Source: a virus. From it: a stretch of 31,328 nt of DNA. The notes beneath the pieces were generated by a model. The model ran no database searches and was not told the origin of the DNA. It saw only the letters and a list, made by a program, of their open reading frames with translations. The stretch covers positions 1 to 31,328 of IMG/VR virus record IMGVR_UViG_3300048548_000488, one strand, 5' to 3'. Below are positions 1,779 through 15,219 of this stretch, piece after piece (the first letter of the stretch is position 1; every line of letters begins with the position of its first letter). A program made the translations under genes and the position numbers.

Positions 1779-2489
1779 ATGGCATTACCTAAATTAAATG
1801 TACCTAGGTACAAACTGAAACTGCCATCTGATGGCAGAACTGTGAACTATAGACCGTTTCTAGTAAAAGAAGAAAAACTTCTTCTTTTAGCAACTGAAAC
1901 GGGAGAACAATCGGACATTGTTATTGCTATTAAAGATATTATTAAAGGATGTACTGATATCGCTGATGTTGATTCGTTAGCAACTTTTGATATTGAATTT
2001 GTGTTTCTGCAAATTCGTACTAGATCAGTCGGTGAATCTGTTGATGTATCTGTGACATGTCCTGATGATGGAGAAACAGAGATGTCTATTTCTATTTCTC
2101 TCGATGATATCAAAGTTCAAAAGACCAGAGGACATAAATCTGAAATTAAATTGTCCGATGAAGTTATCGTTACCATGGGATATCCCAATCTCGAAACTTT
2201 TGTTAAAATGAATTTTAGTGAGGAAGTCAATCAAATTGACCAAGTGTTTGACATGGCAGCAGGTTGTATAAAAACAATTGCTGATGCGGATCAAGTCTAT
2301 GATTGTGCCGATTCGTCGAAACAAGAATTGCTTGAATTTTTTGACCAACTAAGTTCAAAGCAGTTTGGATCAATTCAAAAATTCTTTGAAACGATGCCTA
2401 AACTTTCTCATACACTTAAGGTAACTAATCCTAATACTGGTGTTGAAAGTGAAGTTGTCCTTGAGGGGTTAGCGAGTTTTTTCGCATAG
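1779..2489 (+). CDS. 26: Baseplate hub subunit gp26 (T4_baseplate family)
   Basis: The 236-residue product starts MALPKLNVPRYKLKLPSDG and has YRPFLVKEEKLLLLATETG, the hallmark opening of the gp26 family in T4-like phages (T4 gp26 is 208 residues). A DIEFVFLQIRTRSVGE segment and VTCPDDGE follow. In T4, gp26 helps assemble the central hub. The last zero-frame codons are AGT TTT TTC GCA TAG. These carry a T-TTT-TTC slippery heptamer that lets ribosomes pass into the -1 frame encoding the gp51-like segment, so both the 236-residue form and a fusion of about 299 residues are predicted. The next gene downstream is tape-measure-like, which is the usual neighbour of frameshifted tail-assembly chaperones. 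Confidence 0.85.
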   Translation: MALPKLNVPRYKLKLPSDGRTVNYRPFLVKEEKLLLLATETGEQSDIVIAIKDIIKGCTDIADVDSLATFDIEFVFLQIRTRSVGESVDVSVTCPDDGETEMSISISLDDIKVQKTRGHKSEIKLSDEVIVTMGYPNLETFVKMNFSEEVNQIDQVFDMAAGCIKTIADADQVYDCADSSKQELLEFFDQLSSKQFGSIQKFFETMPKLSHTLKVTNPNTGVESEVVLEGLASFFA

Positions 2490-2526
2490 CACTCCTTCAC
2501 GCCAATCTTCGTTCTTATTATGAAGG
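2477..2526 (+). promoter_or_regulatory. Predicted -1 programmed ribosomal frameshift site (gp26 to gp51)
   Basis: T-TTT-TTC at 2477-2483 is an X-XXY-YYZ slippery heptamer in the correct zero-frame phase, four bases before the gp26 stop. Eleven bases downstream a six-base arm CCTTCA (2494-2499) pairs perfectly with TGAAGG (2521-2526), with TAGC (2487-2490) and GCTA (2536-2539) able to add an outer helix. After the shift, reading continues CGC ATA GCA CTC to the stop at 2675-2677. The -1 frame is open from 2465 but has no ATG, GTG or TTG before the conserved gp51 part. The signal is seen; that it works is inferred. Confidence 0.72.
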
Positions 2527-2677
2527 TAATTTTGCGCTAATGCATCATCATAAATGGAATATCGAACACATCGATAATCTGATGCCTTGGGAAAAAGAGA
2601 TCTATGTGAATTTATTAGTACAATTCCTCAAAGAAGAAGAACGTAGAATGAAGGAGCAGCAAGCAGCTAGTGGCTAA
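2483..2677 (+). CDS. 51: gp51-like hub assembly protein segment, read as a -1 frameshift extension of gp26
   Basis: From the first codon read after the predicted shift, the frame encodes 64 residues: RIALLHANLRSYYEGNF, then MHHHKWNIEHIDNLMPWEKE, and an E/K-rich end. The MPWEKEIYV pattern is what I recall for gp51-like proteins of marine T4-like phages. The only ATG in frame (2540) would cut off the conserved HANLRSYYEGNF part and has no well-placed ribosome site. The segment is therefore most simply made as the C-terminus of a gp26-gp51 fusion of about 299 residues. In T4, gp51 is a separate protein said to catalyse hub assembly. The stop overlaps the GTG start of the next gene by eight bases. 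A short independent product from 2540 is not excluded. Confidence 0.68.
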   Translation, partial: RIALLHANLRSYYEGNFALMHHHKWNIEHIDNLMPWEKEIYVNLLVQFLKEEERRMKEQQAASG

Positions 2678-5465
2678 ATTACAAGTTTATAAGTTTGTAA
2701 ATTCTGGGTCTGTCTCAACAAAAGACCCGTTAGTTGCTGCTGCTCGCTCGCAGACGTTAGCATTTAATAGAATGGGGTCAACATTGACCTCTATTGGAAC
2801 TGTAATATCTGATATAGAAAAAATATCAATTGCTCAGGTAAAGGACGCTAAGAAGCGTGAGCAACTTGAAAGGAGGAGAGACCGTAGACAGAAAGATACT
2901 GCGTCCGAAGAAATACAAGAGTCAACAAAATCAAGAGGTAAAGCTGCAAATCTTGGTGGAAAGATTAAAAACTCTGCCAAGAAAGGACTTGGTTGGATTG
3001 ATAAATTTCTAGGACCAATCGCAACAACCTTTGTAAAATTAGCATCTTTTGCAATTACTACAAAAGTATTAGAGTGGTTAGCTGATGACCAAAATACTGA
3101 AAAATTAAAAACCTTTTTAGACAGAACAAAATTTGTTTTTGAAAAGATATTTGGTTGGGCGAAGGGATTTACTGAAAATATCTTAGATGGATTTGGTGCT
3201 TTAGCAGATCCTAATGGGTCATTTTTATCTAGATTAGGTGGTCTTGGTAAAATAATGATGGGCATCATTGGGTTGAAATACCTGATGAATCCATTCAGTT
3301 TAATTAGTGATATTCTAGGTTTGGTCGATATTCTTGGAAGGCGAGGTGATCGCCCACCAAGAGTCGATAAATCAAAAAAGGTTACTCAAAGACCAACAGC
3401 AAATAAACCATCAGTAAGACCAACAGTAAAACCTAGTCCTAAACTATCTCCTTTCCAGTTAGAGCAAGCACGAAAGGTTGCCACTAAAGAATCTCTTGAA
3501 GGAACTGGTGAACAGGTTGGTAAGAAAGCTACTGGACAGGTTTTTAAATATGGTGGTAAAAATATAACTAAGGCAACACATCGTTTCTTCCTGAAAGTTA
3601 TTGGAAGAGGTGGTGTAACAGGATTAAAGAAATTAATCGGTGCATTTAAGTTACCACTTATAAGTGGTTTACTAACTGCTGCATTGAATTGGATCATGGG
3701 TGAGTCTATCGCCAAATCGCTCATGATGGGTGTTGGTGATGGTATTGGTACATTCTTAGGTGGTTGGGCAGGTGGCGCTATAGGTGCTCTGGGTGGTCCT
3801 GCAGCACCCATTACAATACCTTTAGGTGCATTTGTTGGTGCAATGCTTGGTGGCATTGCAGGTGAGGCAATCGGCGGATACTTATATGATTTGATGTTAG
3901 GTAAGGCAAACTTAGGTGCTGACCTTGGTGCTATGGGCAAGAAACTTATCAGTGGTATGAAGTCTCTTTGGAATGACTATATTATGAATGGAGATTTCTG
4001 GGCAGGTGCCTGGGAAACATTCCTAAACATCGGTCAAGATGTTATGAGTAGTGCCTGGGGCTCTATGATGAACATGTGGAATTATGCTTCTGGTGCTGCA
4101 GCAGATTTCTTTACTCATATGATGGAAGTCTCGAAACCCTGGCGTGAAGCAATGTGGGATGCCTTCCAAAAATATGTTGTTAATGGTCCGCAAGAGTTAG
4201 TCAAAGTTATCTTTGACACGATTCTATCTGGTGCTAAAGGAATTGGGCAAATTTTTGCTGAGGGTGCTCCTATTTTGATGTCCATTATTAAAACTTCTGC
4301 TGAAGCAGCAATTGATTGGGCATTTAATAAAGTCAAAGGTTTAGTTGAAGGAATCCGAGATGCTGTAGTAGGATTCAGACCAAGAGAAGCACTTAGCAAG
4401 TTGGGTTCATTGTTAGTGATGCTTGGAGCACCACTGTCACAGATTCCTGAGATGATGAAAGCTGTTGGTGCTGCAACTAGCAAAACGATTAGTCAAGCAA
4501 TAGCAAAATCAAAAGAAATTGGGCAGATGATTATTGATCCCATCATGGGATATATTGACCCTGCTATTAGAGCAATTAATGAAACCTGGAAAATTGTTAG
4601 TAACCTTCCAGGGTATGTTTACGATAACACTATCAAACCAATCTTTGATGCTATTGGTTCTGTATGGAACTCTGGTCCTGCAATCTGGGAGTTTTTACAT
4701 AGACCAAATACATTCCAAGAAATTACAGGACAAGAAGTTCCCCAACAAGAAATGTTCCTTGGTGGTGTAGTTAAAGGTATTGGTAACGCTGTTAAGGGTG
4801 TTAGTAATGCAGTTAGTGGTGTTATGCAAAGTCCTGTTGGACAGGTACTTGGAACTGCTGCATCTTTTATTCCTGGTGCTGCACCAATTATGGCAGGAAT
4901 TAACACACTTGCCACGGGCAATCCCATGTCAATGTTAGGAATGATTCCTGGCATGGGTGCGATGATGAATAGTCCTTTAGGTCAGATAGGTAGTCAGTTA
5001 TTAGGCGGCAATTTTACAGGTGCTTTGAGTACTGGAATGAATATGGTTCCTGGTATGGGTCAATTCTCTGGACTTGCATCTGGTGCAATAGGTGGACTTA
5101 TGTCTGGTTCTCTTAGTCCTACTAGATTGATAAGTAATGTTGCCGAAAAATTTAATATGGGTGGACTGTATAAAGCAGTTACTGGTGCTATGGGTGGTGA
5201 TTATACATCGAGCATTCGAGAACTTGGATCACAAATTGGAGTTAATCCTAGTGTTCTAGGTGCGGTAGAAAGTACTACTAGCAGAGCAATGTCTAAGGAT
5301 GGTCTTTCTGCAGAATATGCTATGCAACAAGCACTTGAATTTGTCCCAGTACCAATGATTTTAGAGCGACTTGTTCCTCTACCTACAGCAGTTCCCATAA
5401 ATACTGGAGGCGGTGGTGGTGTCGTCACTGGTGTACCTTCTAGCATAACGCAGCGTACTCAATAA
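2670..5465 (+). CDS. Tape-measure-like tail protein (first of two paralogues)
   Basis: The 931-residue product has an N-terminal part with LQVYKFVNSG, a helical NRMGSTLTSIGTVISDIEKI segment and a charged K/R/E-rich coil (about 65-95). Next is a conserved block with VLEWLADDQNTEKL and LKYLMNPFSLISDI (about 110-220), then long alanine/glycine hydrophobic helices with glycine-zipper spacing (about 330-410), and low-complexity G/M/S-rich sequence to the end. This is the composition of a tape-measure protein, and its place directly after gp26/gp51 and before gp27 matches T4 gp29 synteny. At 1.5 A per residue, 931 residues of helix would span roughly 140 nm, plausible for a long cyanomyovirus tail. 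GTG at 2670 is the start, overlapping the gp51 stop. The N-terminal 220 residues are paralogous to the next gene. Tape-measure identity is inferred, not proven. Confidence 0.6.
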   Translation: MAKLQVYKFVNSGSVSTKDPLVAAARSQTLAFNRMGSTLTSIGTVISDIEKISIAQVKDAKKREQLERRRDRRQKDTASEEIQESTKSRGKAANLGGKIKNSAKKGLGWIDKFLGPIATTFVKLASFAITTKVLEWLADDQNTEKLKTFLDRTKFVFEKIFGWAKGFTENILDGFGALADPNGSFLSRLGGLGKIMMGIIGLKYLMNPFSLISDILGLVDILGRRGDRPPRVDKSKKVTQRPTANKPSVRPTVKPSPKLSPFQLEQARKVATKESLEGTGEQVGKKATGQVFKYGGKNITKATHRFFLKVIGRGGVTGLKKLIGAFKLPLISGLLTAALNWIMGESIAKSLMMGVGDGIGTFLGGWAGGAIGALGGPAAPITIPLGAFVGAMLGGIAGEAIGGYLYDLMLGKANLGADLGAMGKKLISGMKSLWNDYIMNGDFWAGAWETFLNIGQDVMSSAWGSMMNMWNYASGAAADFFTHMMEVSKPWREAMWDAFQKYVVNGPQELVKVIFDTILSGAKGIGQIFAEGAPILMSIIKTSAEAAIDWAFNKVKGLVEGIRDAVVGFRPREALSKLGSLLVMLGAPLSQIPEMMKAVGAATSKTISQAIAKSKEIGQMIIDPIMGYIDPAIRAINETWKIVSNLPGYVYDNTIKPIFDAIGSVWNSGPAIWEFLHRPNTFQEITGQEVPQQEMFLGGVVKGIGNAVKGVSNAVSGVMQSPVGQVLGTAASFIPGAAPIMAGINTLATGNPMSMLGMIPGMGAMMNSPLGQIGSQLLGGNFTGALSTGMNMVPGMGQFSGLASGAIGGLMSGSLSPTRLISNVAEKFNMGGLYKAVTGAMGGDYTSSIRELGSQIGVNPSVLGAVESTTSRAMSKDGLSAEYAMQQALEFVPVPMILERLVPLPTAVPINTGGGGGVVTGVPSSITQRTQ

Positions 5466-8317
5466 TGGCAACTGTAACAAAGAGTTCAAAAATTAATTTC
5501 TATAAGTTTGTACAGGTAAAAGAACCATCTGCTACTGTTACAAAAAATGCTGGCGGCAACGTAGATTTAACTAAAGCATTAACCCAAAATACAGTTGCTA
5601 TTAATCGAATAGGGGCAACTTTAAATTCTATTGCTTCTATTACTTCAGATTTAAAAAAAGTTGCTATTGCTCAATCTGAATTAACTCGCGCTAGTGCAGG
5701 AAGTTCATTCACTCCACAATACAATACACCGAAAGAAAAGAATAAGGTTAAAACAGGTGGTGGTATTGTAGATTCTCTGAAAGTCCCTGGATTCCTGGAC
5801 GGATTACTGAATATTCTAGGTGGTCTAGTAAAACTTACAGTTGGTACTACTGTCTTAAAATGGTTTGCTGATGATGCAAATCAACAGAGTTTAGTCAATA
5901 TTTTAGACGGAATTAAAAAGATTGCAACATTCATCTTCAAAGTTGCTGAATTTGGTGTTTTTAATACAATCGATGGATTGTATGAGTTATTATCTGATGA
6001 TTCAAATCCTTTAGAAAGAATAGGAGGTCTTGTAAAAGGATTAACAGGACTTGGAACATTATTATTAGGTCTTCGCTGGTTATCCAATCCAACTAGACTT
6101 CTTACCGATTTTGGTAATGTGTTAATTTTCTTTCGTAATAATCTTATCAAAGGAAGGAGAGGATTATTAGGTAGAGGTTTAGCCCTTGGAGTTGCAGCAG
6201 CAAGTGCTTATGGTGGAGTTAAAGCATATAACTATCTTAAAGAGGGTGAAACTACTGCCACTCAAGTAGAAGATGGTCAAGAACCAGCAAACAAACCTGA
6301 AGGATTTTCTAAAGGTGGTAAAGTAAATCTACTACCTCAAAGAGCATCAGGAGGATTTATTAATGGACCACAATCAGGATATCCCGTATCACTGGACGGG
6401 GGGAGATCGACCTCGTTTATCGGACACGGACGTGAGTATGTTGCTAGAAAGAGCAATGGGGGAGCTTTCGTCGTTCCTCTTAATACTCCTGGAACAAAAA
6501 CGCAACCTCATCTAACTTCTAAAAGGATGGGTGAGGCACAGAGTCAAGGATTTGACATCGGTGGAATGGTGAATGCATTCCAAGGTGGATTTGATCCAGG
6601 AAGGGGTTATGGTAATCCTATGTCTAAGAGTGTATTAGGTTCTTCACCAGAGTCTAAATTTATGTCTCAAGGTGGTGGACTTCCTGGTTTTGCAAATGGT
6701 GGTAATTTAAATAAACAGATTTATTTGCATTGGACTGCTAGTAGACATAATTGGAAGGCAGGTCCTTATCATACTACTGTTCAAGGTGATGGTACATTAT
6801 ATAAGCATTTACCATATGATCGACACACTGCTCACACATACTACAGGAACACAGGAAATGTAGGTCTTTCAGTCGCTGCGATGAAAGATTGGAATTGGGA
6901 GAGTTACGGACCAACAAGACCTCAACTTGATGGTTTGATGGGAGAAGCAGCGGTTGTTGCTAAAGGTTGGGGATGGAAACCATCTGATGTTACCGTGAAA
7001 AGAGTTATGACGCACGCTGAAGCAGCGTCAAACAAAGACGGTAGATCACCTCATGATAATTATGGTCCTCAATTCTGGGGTGGTACTGGTGAGCGTTCCG
7101 ACTTACATAAATTATCTAGAAATGAAAAAGATGGTACAGGTGGAGATAAACTTCGTCAGATGATGAAGAAATTTATGGGTATGTCAAATCCCCCTCTACT
7201 TAAAGAAGTTGGTCCTGGTGCAGGTCCAAATGGTGGAGGAACTCAGAAAGCAGGATCAATGAATAGTAGTGAATATAATTTACTCCAACGTTTAGTTCTT
7301 GCAGAATCGGGTGGTGAAGGTAAGATTGGTATGTCACTTGTTGCTCGTTCTGTATTGAATAGAGCAGGACTTATTCAATCAGGAAAAGTTGGACCTGGAA
7401 TGTTCATGGCGAATGATTCGTCTGTGACTGGTGTTATCATGGGCCCAGGTCAGTATGAACCTGTTCGTAATGGTAGTATTAATGATAGTAGATCAGCAGC
7501 ACAGATGTCAGAGGCTAAGGATGCAATTGAAATGGCAAGAAATCCTGCAAATCTCAGAGGAACTCTTGAAGGAGAAGGTTTACAAGCAGCACAAATTAAC
7601 TACTTAATGGCTTCTACTGGATTTAGAACTGGTTCTGCATTTAATGATGAGTCTCAAAATGTCAATGTAGTTAAATACAAAAATCACTTCTTTAATACTG
7701 CTGGTAATAAAGATGTCAAACATTCACTTGCTGAAATTGAGAATGGTGGCACTGGTGGTGGACATGGTTCTGGGGATTATGGTGGTGGACAAACAAATGG
7801 AGACAGTCGTGGAGTTCAGTTTGATAGTGATTTCAGTAAATTAGTTTTAGGTCCAAGTACAAGCGTCCCTACTACTGATTATTCTGGGTATACATATGGA
7901 AACGCTGCTGCACGGCGACCAGTTCGTAGAGTAGGTGCTGCTACCGCAGGACCTAGTGCAGTTGGTGCATCAAATGTTGCACAAAGACAAAGAATTCAAC
8001 AGTCAACTAATGAAAGAAATACTGCCAGACAAAAAATTAATGAGAAAACTAGAGAGATGATGGCCGCGGCATTAGAAGCAGTTGGTGAACAAAATGGAAT
8101 GAATGCTCAGATGGTTGCTTCTGCATCGCAAGCAATTATGCAAATGCAAGCACAATCTGGTGGTTCACAACAACCGCAATTCATTCCTTCTAGCGGTGGT
8201 ATTTCTGGTGCTGGAATTGGTCGTGCTATGGGTGGTGATGTTGGTGCTGCTATTGGTGGAACTGCAGCTGCCGTACTCAACTCTACAAATAATCCCCTTA
8301 AAGGTATATTCCGATGA
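5465..8317 (+). CDS. Tape-measure-paralogous tail protein with amidase and SleB-like peptidoglycan hydrolase domains
   Basis: This 950-residue protein has three parts. Residues 1-225 match the preceding protein (INFYKFV, NRIGATLNSIASI, VLKWFADDANQQSL, LRWLSNPTRLLTD). Residues about 415-560 form an Amidase_2/PGRP-type N-acetylmuramoyl-L-alanine amidase: IYLHWTAS with H422, a RHTAHTYY strand, a GNVGLSVAAM strand, THAEA with H517, and RSDLH with D546, giving a likely H/H/D zinc site. Residues about 600-735 resemble the SleB (Hydrolase_2) cell-wall hydrolase: LVLAESGGEGKIGMSLVARSVLNRA with the likely catalytic E614, closing in KYKNHFF. The C-terminus is glutamine/glycine rich. The likely role is local digestion of host peptidoglycan at infection. 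The ATG overlaps the upstream stop (TAATG). The domain calls are firm; tail location is inferred from context. Confidence 0.78.
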   Translation: MATVTKSSKINFYKFVQVKEPSATVTKNAGGNVDLTKALTQNTVAINRIGATLNSIASITSDLKKVAIAQSELTRASAGSSFTPQYNTPKEKNKVKTGGGIVDSLKVPGFLDGLLNILGGLVKLTVGTTVLKWFADDANQQSLVNILDGIKKIATFIFKVAEFGVFNTIDGLYELLSDDSNPLERIGGLVKGLTGLGTLLLGLRWLSNPTRLLTDFGNVLIFFRNNLIKGRRGLLGRGLALGVAAASAYGGVKAYNYLKEGETTATQVEDGQEPANKPEGFSKGGKVNLLPQRASGGFINGPQSGYPVSLDGGRSTSFIGHGREYVARKSNGGAFVVPLNTPGTKTQPHLTSKRMGEAQSQGFDIGGMVNAFQGGFDPGRGYGNPMSKSVLGSSPESKFMSQGGGLPGFANGGNLNKQIYLHWTASRHNWKAGPYHTTVQGDGTLYKHLPYDRHTAHTYYRNTGNVGLSVAAMKDWNWESYGPTRPQLDGLMGEAAVVAKGWGWKPSDVTVKRVMTHAEAASNKDGRSPHDNYGPQFWGGTGERSDLHKLSRNEKDGTGGDKLRQMMKKFMGMSNPPLLKEVGPGAGPNGGGTQKAGSMNSSEYNLLQRLVLAESGGEGKIGMSLVARSVLNRAGLIQSGKVGPGMFMANDSSVTGVIMGPGQYEPVRNGSINDSRSAAQMSEAKDAIEMARNPANLRGTLEGEGLQAAQINYLMASTGFRTGSAFNDESQNVNVVKYKNHFFNTAGNKDVKHSLAEIENGGTGGGHGSGDYGGGQTNGDSRGVQFDSDFSKLVLGPSTSVPTTDYSGYTYGNAAARRPVRRVGAATAGPSAVGASNVAQRQRIQQSTNERNTARQKINEKTREMMAAALEAVGEQNGMNAQMVASASQAIMQMQAQSGGSQQPQFIPSSGGISGAGIGRAMGGDVGAAIGGTAAAVLNSTNNPLKGIFR

Positions 8318-10014: not shown

Positions 10015-10465
10015 CTTTGAAGACTATATTATTGGTCATTGGTCAAATAAATCACAAGCACAATCAAATCCTCATCACTTCGTTTCAGTAGAGATTATTT
10101 GGAAACGTTATGAAGAGGGATACCAATCAATGAACTTTAAACGTTGTGATGGACCTGATAATTATTATAGAAAAAAGAATCACAAGATTGTCGAACTGTC
10201 TGAGACTGAGGTATTGGTAGAGAACTATCACTTGGACTGGACAAGACACGAAGATTGTGATATGATATTTAAGTTCGATGGCAAGGCATGGCACGGTCAA
10301 CTTGCTGGAGATAATTGTAGAGGTTATAGGGGAGACCGTGTAATCTCTGAAATACATGTCTTTCAAGACAAACTACATACTTGTGACCAAGGAAGAGACT
10401 TGGAAACAGGTGAACTTATGTGGGGTAGTACAGAATTGTATCGCTTCACTAGGAAGCCCGAATAG
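10004..10465 (+). CDS. cpeT: CpeT/CpcT-like phycobiliprotein lyase
   Basis: The 153-residue product shows the CpeT/CpcT pattern: an N-terminal IIGHWSNKSQAQSNPHHF, a YRKKNHKIVEL strand, a central DNCRGYRGDRVISEIHVF, and a C-terminal TCDQGRDLETGELMWGSTEL followed by YRFTRK. Family members attach phycobilin chromophores to phycobiliproteins. Phage versions are about 150 residues, shorter than host CpeT (about 200), and their activity is less certain. A role in keeping or altering host light harvesting during infection is inferred. It overlaps cp12 by 11 bases, so the two are co-translated. Its stop codon lies inside the acceptor/D-arm part of tRNA-Val, so mRNA and tRNA share ten bases. Confidence 0.8.
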   Translation: MTTNFEDYIIGHWSNKSQAQSNPHHFVSVEIIWKRYEEGYQSMNFKRCDGPDNYYRKKNHKIVELSETEVLVENYHLDWTRHEDCDMIFKFDGKAWHGQLAGDNCRGYRGDRVISEIHVFQDKLHTCDQGRDLETGELMWGSTELYRFTRKPE

Positions 10466-10527
10466 CTCAGCGGTAGAGCACCTCCTTTACACGGAGATTG
10501 TCGGGGGTTCGATCCCCTCTTCGGGCA
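10456..10527 (+). tRNA. tRNA-Val (anticodon UAC)
   Basis: A 72-base cloverleaf. The acceptor GCCCGAA pairs with TTCGGGC, the D-arm is GCTC/GAGC, the anticodon loop TTTACAC reads TAC, and the T-arm GGGGG-TTCGATC-CCCTC has one G-U pair. The discriminator base is A and no CCA is encoded. The first anticodon-stem pair is a C-A mismatch. It overlaps the last ten bases of the cpeT-like gene. UAC reads A-ending valine codons, which AT-rich phage genes use more than the host. Confidence 0.93.
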
Positions 10528-14747: not shown

Positions 14748-14983
14748 GACCCGAAACTCGTGAATCAATGGAAAACCTTTGGTCCGCCAAATGGAATCTT
14801 CCTAAAGCAGCAAGAAACTGTAATCTGACAGATAAGGAGATGAAAATCACCTTTAACGAGTATTGTGCTTTTCATCCTCCTACCTGGGAAATTGGTAACA
14901 CCAAACAAATTGGTATCCTTTATGTTGATGGGAGTGTGGCGGAATCGGTAGACGCACCAGACTTAAAATCTGTTGACCATTAA
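14744..14983 (+). CDS. Small protein of unknown function; 3' end overlaps tRNA-Leu
   Basis: The 79-residue frame begins MRPETRESMENLWSAKWNLPKAARNCNLTDKEM, a helix-turn-helix-like arrangement (WSAKWNLPKAARNCN, L-T-D-K-E-M) also seen in small cyanophage ORFs. The ATG overlaps the upstream stop (ATGAG). From about residue 63 onward the codons are those of tRNA-Leu, so the C-terminal 17 residues are probably not under selection as protein. The fold and DNA binding are not established. Confidence 0.6.
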   Translation: MRPETRESMENLWSAKWNLPKAARNCNLTDKEMKITFNEYCAFHPPTWEIGNTKQIGILYVDGSVAESVDAPDLKSVDH

Positions 14984-15014
14984 GGTCGTGGGGGTTCAAG
15001 TCCCCCCACTCCTA
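14930..15014 (+). tRNA. tRNA-Leu (anticodon UAA)
   Basis: An 85-base class II tRNA. The acceptor GGGAGTG pairs with CACTCCT (the first pair is G-U), the D-arm is GCGG...GACGC, the anticodon loop CTTAAAA reads TAA, there is a long variable arm (TGACCATTAAGGTCGT) and the T-arm is GGGGG-TTCAAGT-CCCCC. The discriminator is A; no CCA is encoded. It overlaps 54 bases of the preceding ORF. Confidence 0.93.
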
Positions 15015-15020
15015 TATAAC

Positions 15021-15069: not shown

Positions 15070-15141
15070 GCCTCCGTAGCTCAGTGGTAGAGCAGGGCTT
15101 TTGTAAAGCTCAGGTCGCAAGTTCAAATCTTGTCAGAGGCT
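15070..15141 (+). tRNA. tRNA-Thr (anticodon UGU)
   Basis: A 72-base cloverleaf. The acceptor GCCTCCG pairs with CAGAGGC with one C-A mismatch. The D-arm is GCTC/GAGC, the anticodon stem GGGCT/AGCTC carries the loop TTTGTAA (anticodon TGT), and the T-arm is GCAAG-TTCAAAT-CTTGT. The discriminator is T; no CCA is encoded. Confidence 0.92.
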
Positions 15142-15146
15142 CTCAA

Positions 15147-15219
15147 TCCTCTATAGCTCAGTTGGTAGAGCAGGTGACTGTTAATCACCCTGTCCCTGGT
15201 TCGAGTCCAGGTGGAGGAG
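15147..15219 (+). tRNA. tRNA-Asn (anticodon GUU)
   Basis: A 73-base cloverleaf. The acceptor TCCTCTA pairs with TGGAGGA, the D-arm is GCTC/GAGC, the anticodon stem GGTGA/TCACC carries the loop CTGTTAA (anticodon GTT), and the T-arm is CCTGG-TTCGAGT-CCAGG. The discriminator is G; no CCA is encoded. Only five bases separate it from tRNA-Thr. Confidence 0.94.

Follow-up and report, generated by a model that had tools for sequence, protein, structure and literature searches.

The window analyzed here, a 31,328 nucleotide stretch of viral DNA from a T4-like cyanophage, contains on its + strand a gp26 gene whose 3′ end overlaps an open −1 frame, both lying directly upstream of a 931-residue tape measure candidate. 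The gp26 product matches PF12322 (E 6e-75) and phrog_150, and scores 252 bits against the curated PF12322 model, for which the cut-off is 24.5, as a member of the T4 gp26 family. The gene ends in the codons GCG AGT TTT TTC GCA TAG, where three bases (GCA) separate an in-phase T_TTT_TTC heptamer from the stop codon. The first-pass annotation of this DNA had proposed that gp26 and gp51 are joined by −1 ribosomal frameshifting at this heptamer, which it placed correctly. The elements of the locus are:

1779 to 2489, + strand: gp26, the predicted short tail assembly chaperone (TAC-N), 236 residues
2463 to 2468, + strand: Shine-Dalgarno (SD)-like GAGGGG, 8 nt before the heptamer, a likely upstream frameshift stimulator
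2465 to 2677, + strand: open −1 frame, with a predicted post-shift coding part (TAC-C, gp51-like) at 2483 to 2674 and a TAA stop at 2675 to 2677
2477 to 2483, + strand: slippery heptamer T_TTT_TTC, in phase with gp26
2487 to 2489, + strand: gp26 stop codon TAG
2494 to 2499, + strand: 5′ arm (CCTTCA) of the stem noted in the first-pass annotation
2521 to 2526, + strand: 3′ arm (TGAAGG) of that stem, shared with a competing hairpin
2670 to 5465, + strand: tape measure candidate (phrog_790), with a GTG start and an 8 nt overlap with the −1 stop

The −1 frame matches phrog_634 at E 1e-32, a family labeled 'baseplate hub assembly catalyst', in agreement with its earlier description as an open, gp51-like segment. 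A second match is to phrog_150, the gp26 family, at C-terminal columns 227-278. A −1 shift on the heptamer would join gp26 residues 1-235 to a 64-residue C-terminal segment, giving a fusion of exactly 299 residues where about 299 had been estimated, with the predicted junction peptide ...LASFFRIALLHANLR... and the predicted C-terminus ...LEGLASFFRIALLHANLRSYYEGNFALMHHHKWNIEHIDNLMPWEKEIYVNLLVQFLKEEERRMKEQQAASG. The earliest start codon of the −1 frame in the window is an ATG at 2540, within the conserved segment.

The gene at 2670 is a candidate tape measure gene on the basis of its position, its size and weak profile matches to the tape measure PHROGs 167 and 1272. Its own family, phrog_790, carries the PHROGs label 'endolysin', perhaps transferred from hydrolase domains in related proteins. 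The adjacent gene at 5465-8317 is of similar length (both about 940 residues) and is related to it over the N-terminal ~215 residues (31% identity, E 3e-17), such that the two look like diverged tandem copies of a tape measure-like N-terminus; the second gene in addition gives weak amidase and cell-wall hydrolase matches. Elsewhere, the window contains four tRNA genes, Val-TAC (10456-10527), Leu-TAA (14929-15015), Thr-TGT (15070-15142) and Asn-GTT (15147-15219), and the listed open reading frames that span them are probably spurious.

Conservation of the slippery heptamer

Given a Ser-Phe-Phe sequence and the codon usage of the gene itself, the chance of finding T_TTT_TTY in the window is ~0.52. 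The heptamer is therefore unremarkable from the window alone, and it is the comparison with relatives that is decisive, placing the predicted slippery site and the −1 frame together far beyond chance. Relatives were collected by gp26 similarity alone, so the presence of the heptamer was not selected for. It lies at the same place in all 81 sequences of a first set (80 IMG/VR loci and the window), and T_TTT_TT(C/T/G) is found in 253 of the 255 loci with a readable gp26 stop in a larger set, which was gathered with more distant queries and includes a few duplicate records of one phage. From the start of the heptamer to the gp26 stop there are 10 nt in 218 loci, 31 nt in 29, 13 nt in five and 7 nt in one; the 31 nt group is telling, as the gp26 stop has shifted there and the heptamer has not moved. 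At one Stenotrophomonas phage locus (L179) the slippery run, near position 3250, consists of five T residues, not six, and because its zero frame does not enter the gp51 frame we treated it as a probable sequence (homopolymer) error or mutation. A further locus, L284, was left out as a poor match.

Substitutions were analyzed across 165 non-redundant gp26 genes with a tree length of 48 substitutions per site. Third-codon positions show a median of 48 changes per column, and just two third-position columns in gp26 have two or fewer; both define the heptamer, being the base that precedes TTT and the third position of TTT, and each has zero changes. The codon that precedes TTT encodes Ser, Asp, Asn, Ala, Gly or Thr, with 27 changes at its first position and 31 at its second, yet its final base is always T. 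The heptamer reads T_TTT_TTC or T_TTT_TTT in 164 of the 165 genes, both of which are good tandem-slippage sites. It is also present in distant phages, namely Aeromonas 65, Stenotrophomonas Bhz51, Acidovorax ACP17, Sinorhizobium phiM12 and Pseudomonas pf16, and further in Vibrio vB_VmeM-32, Pseudoalteromonas XG4, Aeromonas G2, Aeh1 and Cronobacter S13. These counts show the invariance of an in-phase heptamer near the 3′ end of the predicted TAC-N gene, a feature consistent with a tail assembly chaperone.

The heptamer is absent from the gp26 genes of Vibrio K364 and D503, Pseudomonas Cygsa01 and the Ackermannviridae SFP10 (Salmonella) and phiDP10.3 (Dickeya), whose 3′ ends are those of loci L085, L260, L264, L285 and L286. 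Four of the five (K364, D503, Cygsa01 and phiDP10.3) have a TAATG stop-start overlap, and SFP10 has neither element. In these relatives, reinitiation or a different site may be used. Scanning IMG/VR with the Vibrio K364 gp26 gave no matches.

Elements flanking the heptamer

In relatives, a GAGG sits roughly 8 to 14 nt upstream of the heptamer, and the Glu codon at this site is GAG in 88 of 122 relatives, compared with 28% elsewhere. Pairing with the anti-SD is strongest at the GAGG (mean duplex energy −6.4 kcal/mol, against a gene mean of −0.67 with a standard deviation of 1.39), and pairing here beats that of synonymous shuffles with p = 1.8e-11, a value that is optimistic because the sequences are related. 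The GAGG is under synonymous selection and is a likely frameshift stimulator.

Downstream, the perfect six-pair stem CCTTCA/TGAAGG proposed earlier does exist, beginning 11 nt past the heptamer, but within the window it is weak: its z score is −0.69, 40 of 200 shuffles fold equally well, and an overlapping eight-pair hairpin (2505-2512/2520-2527) competes for its 3′ arm. Within the clade of the window the stem is 83% paired and includes one both-side change; sliding it lowers the pairing to 44% or less. Stems in this region vary from clade to clade, and a search for a family-wide covarying stem found no pair at E<0.05; we therefore narrowed the claim to group-specific hairpins and folding energy. 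Across the family, the stretch of codons 2-16 in the −1 frame is more stably folded than its synonymous shuffles, by 4.7 kcal/mol on average and with a lower energy in 88% of sequences, whereas in control windows the difference is about 0 to −1.3, showing selection on hairpin stability. One group-specific case is a set of 41 sequences with CATATG at 15-20, in which a hairpin at 11-15/20-24 shows 89% pairing, four of its five pairs have changed on both sides, and the covariation of the four variable pairs beat a phylogenetic null in 1000 of 1000 simulations (p<0.001). The predicted family feature is thus some hairpin conserved in position and not in sequence, and the particular stem first noted in the window is not that feature.

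Predicted expression of the −1 frame and its relation to T4 gp51

In every relative tested, the gp51-like segment occupies the −1 frame at an identical offset; in the first set this holds for 80 of 80 placeable loci (one, L032, ends too early to place). Past the gp26 stop, the −1 frame of the 255-locus set stays open for a median of 182 nt versus 16 nt for the +1 frame, showing that the −1 frame is conserved; it would encode a C-terminal extension, again consistent with a tail assembly chaperone gene. A frame split by sequencing error was rejected, as the same −1 arrangement occurs in hundreds of independent records.

T4 itself has separate, divergent genes 26 and 51, the latter encoding 249 residues; in Klebsiella KP15 genes 51 and 26 are also separate, and adjacent. 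When the predicted fusions are built into a profile, its alignment to T4 gp51 runs through the junction and covers 179 columns (hhalign E 8.4e-9), with E values of 1.2e-4 and 7.8e-5 for the N and C halves alone, and T4 gp26 matches the N part of the profile (E 1e-15). This colinearity through the junction argues for homology with the T4 gp51 family and makes T4 gp51 look like an in-frame version of the fusion. T4 gp51 is needed for assembly and is absent from the particle (PMC3004832). A 2010 comparison (PMC3037559) found cyanophage gp51 to be ~20% as long, lacking the N-terminal ~200 residues, and reported gp51 as missing from Aeh1. Both observations would follow from frameshifting: the N-terminal part of T4 gp51 corresponds to gp26, which the shift would join to the segment, leaving cyanophage gp51 seemingly truncated or unannotated, and the 'missing' Aeh1 gp51 can be placed in the −1 frame, since locus L287 reads GAT TTT TTC GAC TGA and is followed by a gp51-like segment in that frame after the gp26 stop at 2699.

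Structural comparison adds a hint. AlphaFold models gp26 with confidence (pLDDT 87), and the highest Foldseek probability against the PDB, 0.72, belongs to the HK97 tail assembly chaperone 2ob9_B, but at E 0.9; no PDB match was significant by Foldseek, and phmmer against the PDB returned none. Among viral models, the gp26 model matches many gp26 proteins as well as gp51 of Acinetobacter phage ZZ1 (E 1.8e-5).

The first-pass annotation had also held that gp51 has no usable start of its own. This is borne out in the window and does not extend to the family, in which an ATG precedes the conserved core in the −1 frame of 87 of the 165 non-redundant relatives and 61 have no start of any kind ahead of it; yet 158 of the 165 have no SD-like motif suitably spaced from such a start. 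The ATGs recur at fixed places relative to the heptamer (63 at +15 and 43 at +24), as they might if the clades concerned made both a frameshift fusion and a separately started gp51 fragment. We consider this unlikely, given the 158 relatives just mentioned, the double service of these ATGs as codons of the conserved segment and as parts of the hairpin, and the fact that the window has no such ATG. Very unlikely is a gp51 that is only ever separate, started inside the −1 frame by reinitiation past the gp26 stop, with no fusion made and the T run a mere feature of codon usage. The same 87 relatives and the TAATG overlaps of K364, D503, Cygsa01 and phiDP10.3 would suit it, but it leaves unexplained both the unchanged third positions of the heptamer over the whole tree and the retention of the heptamer where the stop has moved, and it sits poorly with a first start inside the core in the window, with the 61 relatives that have none ahead of the core, and with the fusion-like, colinear T4 gp51. 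Transcriptional slippage on the poly-T run, yielding mRNAs with altered numbers of U that fuse the frames, is scarcely credible: polymerase slippage is sometimes seen at runs of around six T, the length found here, but the selected upstream SD-like element and downstream hairpin fit ribosomal slippage, as do the tandem-slippage sites in 164 of 165 genes.

It is therefore very probable that gp26 and the −1 frame form one tail assembly chaperone gene expressed by −1 ribosomal frameshifting, and their standing as T4-like counterparts of chaperones of the lambda G/GT type is well supported by evidence that is all comparative sequence, from relatives that share ancestry and with null models that are approximate. 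Most ribosomes would finish gp26 and stop at 2487, producing TAC-N (236 residues), while some would slip back one base on T_TTT_TTC and read to 2675, producing the 299-residue TAC-NC. Two aids to slippage are predicted: the upstream SD-like GAGGGG, pairing with 16S rRNA, and, for most relatives, the downstream hairpin. If lambda G/GT is a guide, TAC-N would coat the tape measure protein and the C-terminal domain would recruit tail tube subunits. We infer the occurrence of slippage, its efficiency and this chaperone action. Because the −1 stop overlaps the GTG at 2670, ribosomes that have shifted may also contribute to translation of the tape measure candidate; in relatives, the most frequent overlaps between the next start and the −1 stop are of 8 or 1 nt (82 of 165), which suggests that this translation is coupled to frameshifted ribosomes. 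Annotation pipelines should merge gp26 with the −1 open reading frame, and the variation of the signal among marine phages provides a large natural set for the study of frameshift stimulators.

Comparison with known systems

The frameshift had been put forward as seemingly undescribed in T4-like phages. The heptamer, the −1 frame and the colinearity with T4 gp51 support the biology of that proposal; the claim to novelty is out of date, since tail assembly chaperone genes of T4-like phages were reported by Vladimirov, Gautam and Davidson (Virology 2022, 566:9-15), as cited in PMC10885494 and PMC12846349. The second of these, on phage Adele, credits that work with −1 shift signals of the poly-T kind in the TAC-N genes of T4-like phages, and the first, on PRFect, describes some T4-like phages in which the shift is replaced by two genes, one short and the other a longer fusion. 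In the literature examined, which covered Vladimirov et al. by way of these citing papers, no description was found of the SD-like element, the fast-changing hairpin or the explanation for Aeh1. We regard the locus as an unannotated instance of a known system, the details of whose signal are possibly undescribed.

The 2022 abstract of Vladimirov, Gautam and Davidson reportedly states that several T4-like groups have conserved the frameshift and that in T4 the two products, TAC-N and TAC-NC, come from separate genes, 26 and 51. The logic of a short and a long chaperone, as relayed by the papers citing that work, is common to those phages and to the window, although T4 has two divergent genes where the window has one gene and a shift. 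Lambda G/GT and the other siphophage chaperone frameshifts, reportedly treated by Xu, Hendrix and Duda in 2004, likewise comprise a short form and a rarer −1 fusion just upstream of the tape measure gene; the lambda heptamer, G GGA AAG, differs from T_TTT_TTC. In phage Adele and the Vandenendeviridae and Andersonviridae, a −1 shift occurs close to the end of TAC-N at the conserved sequence GTTTTT, with the −1 frame open in every genome (PMC12846349). Their chaperone locus resembles the present one in the position of the shift, in other phage families.

The frameshift signal of E. coli dnaX comprises an SD-like element ~10 nt upstream, the heptamer A AAA AAG and a downstream hairpin. On balance, we favor the view that the signal of cyanophage-type T4-like phages is similarly three-part, combining an SD inside the gene with T_TTT_TTY and a hairpin downstream that is selected for place and stability while its sequence turns over quickly between clades, and that some relatives, those with a stop-start overlap and no heptamer, appear to have abandoned the strategy. 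The window and dnaX are thus alike in the upstream SD-like element, slippery heptamer and downstream hairpin, whereas dnaX is a cellular gene that slips on A AAA AAG, and at the phage locus the roles of the SD-like element and hairpin are deduced from selection.
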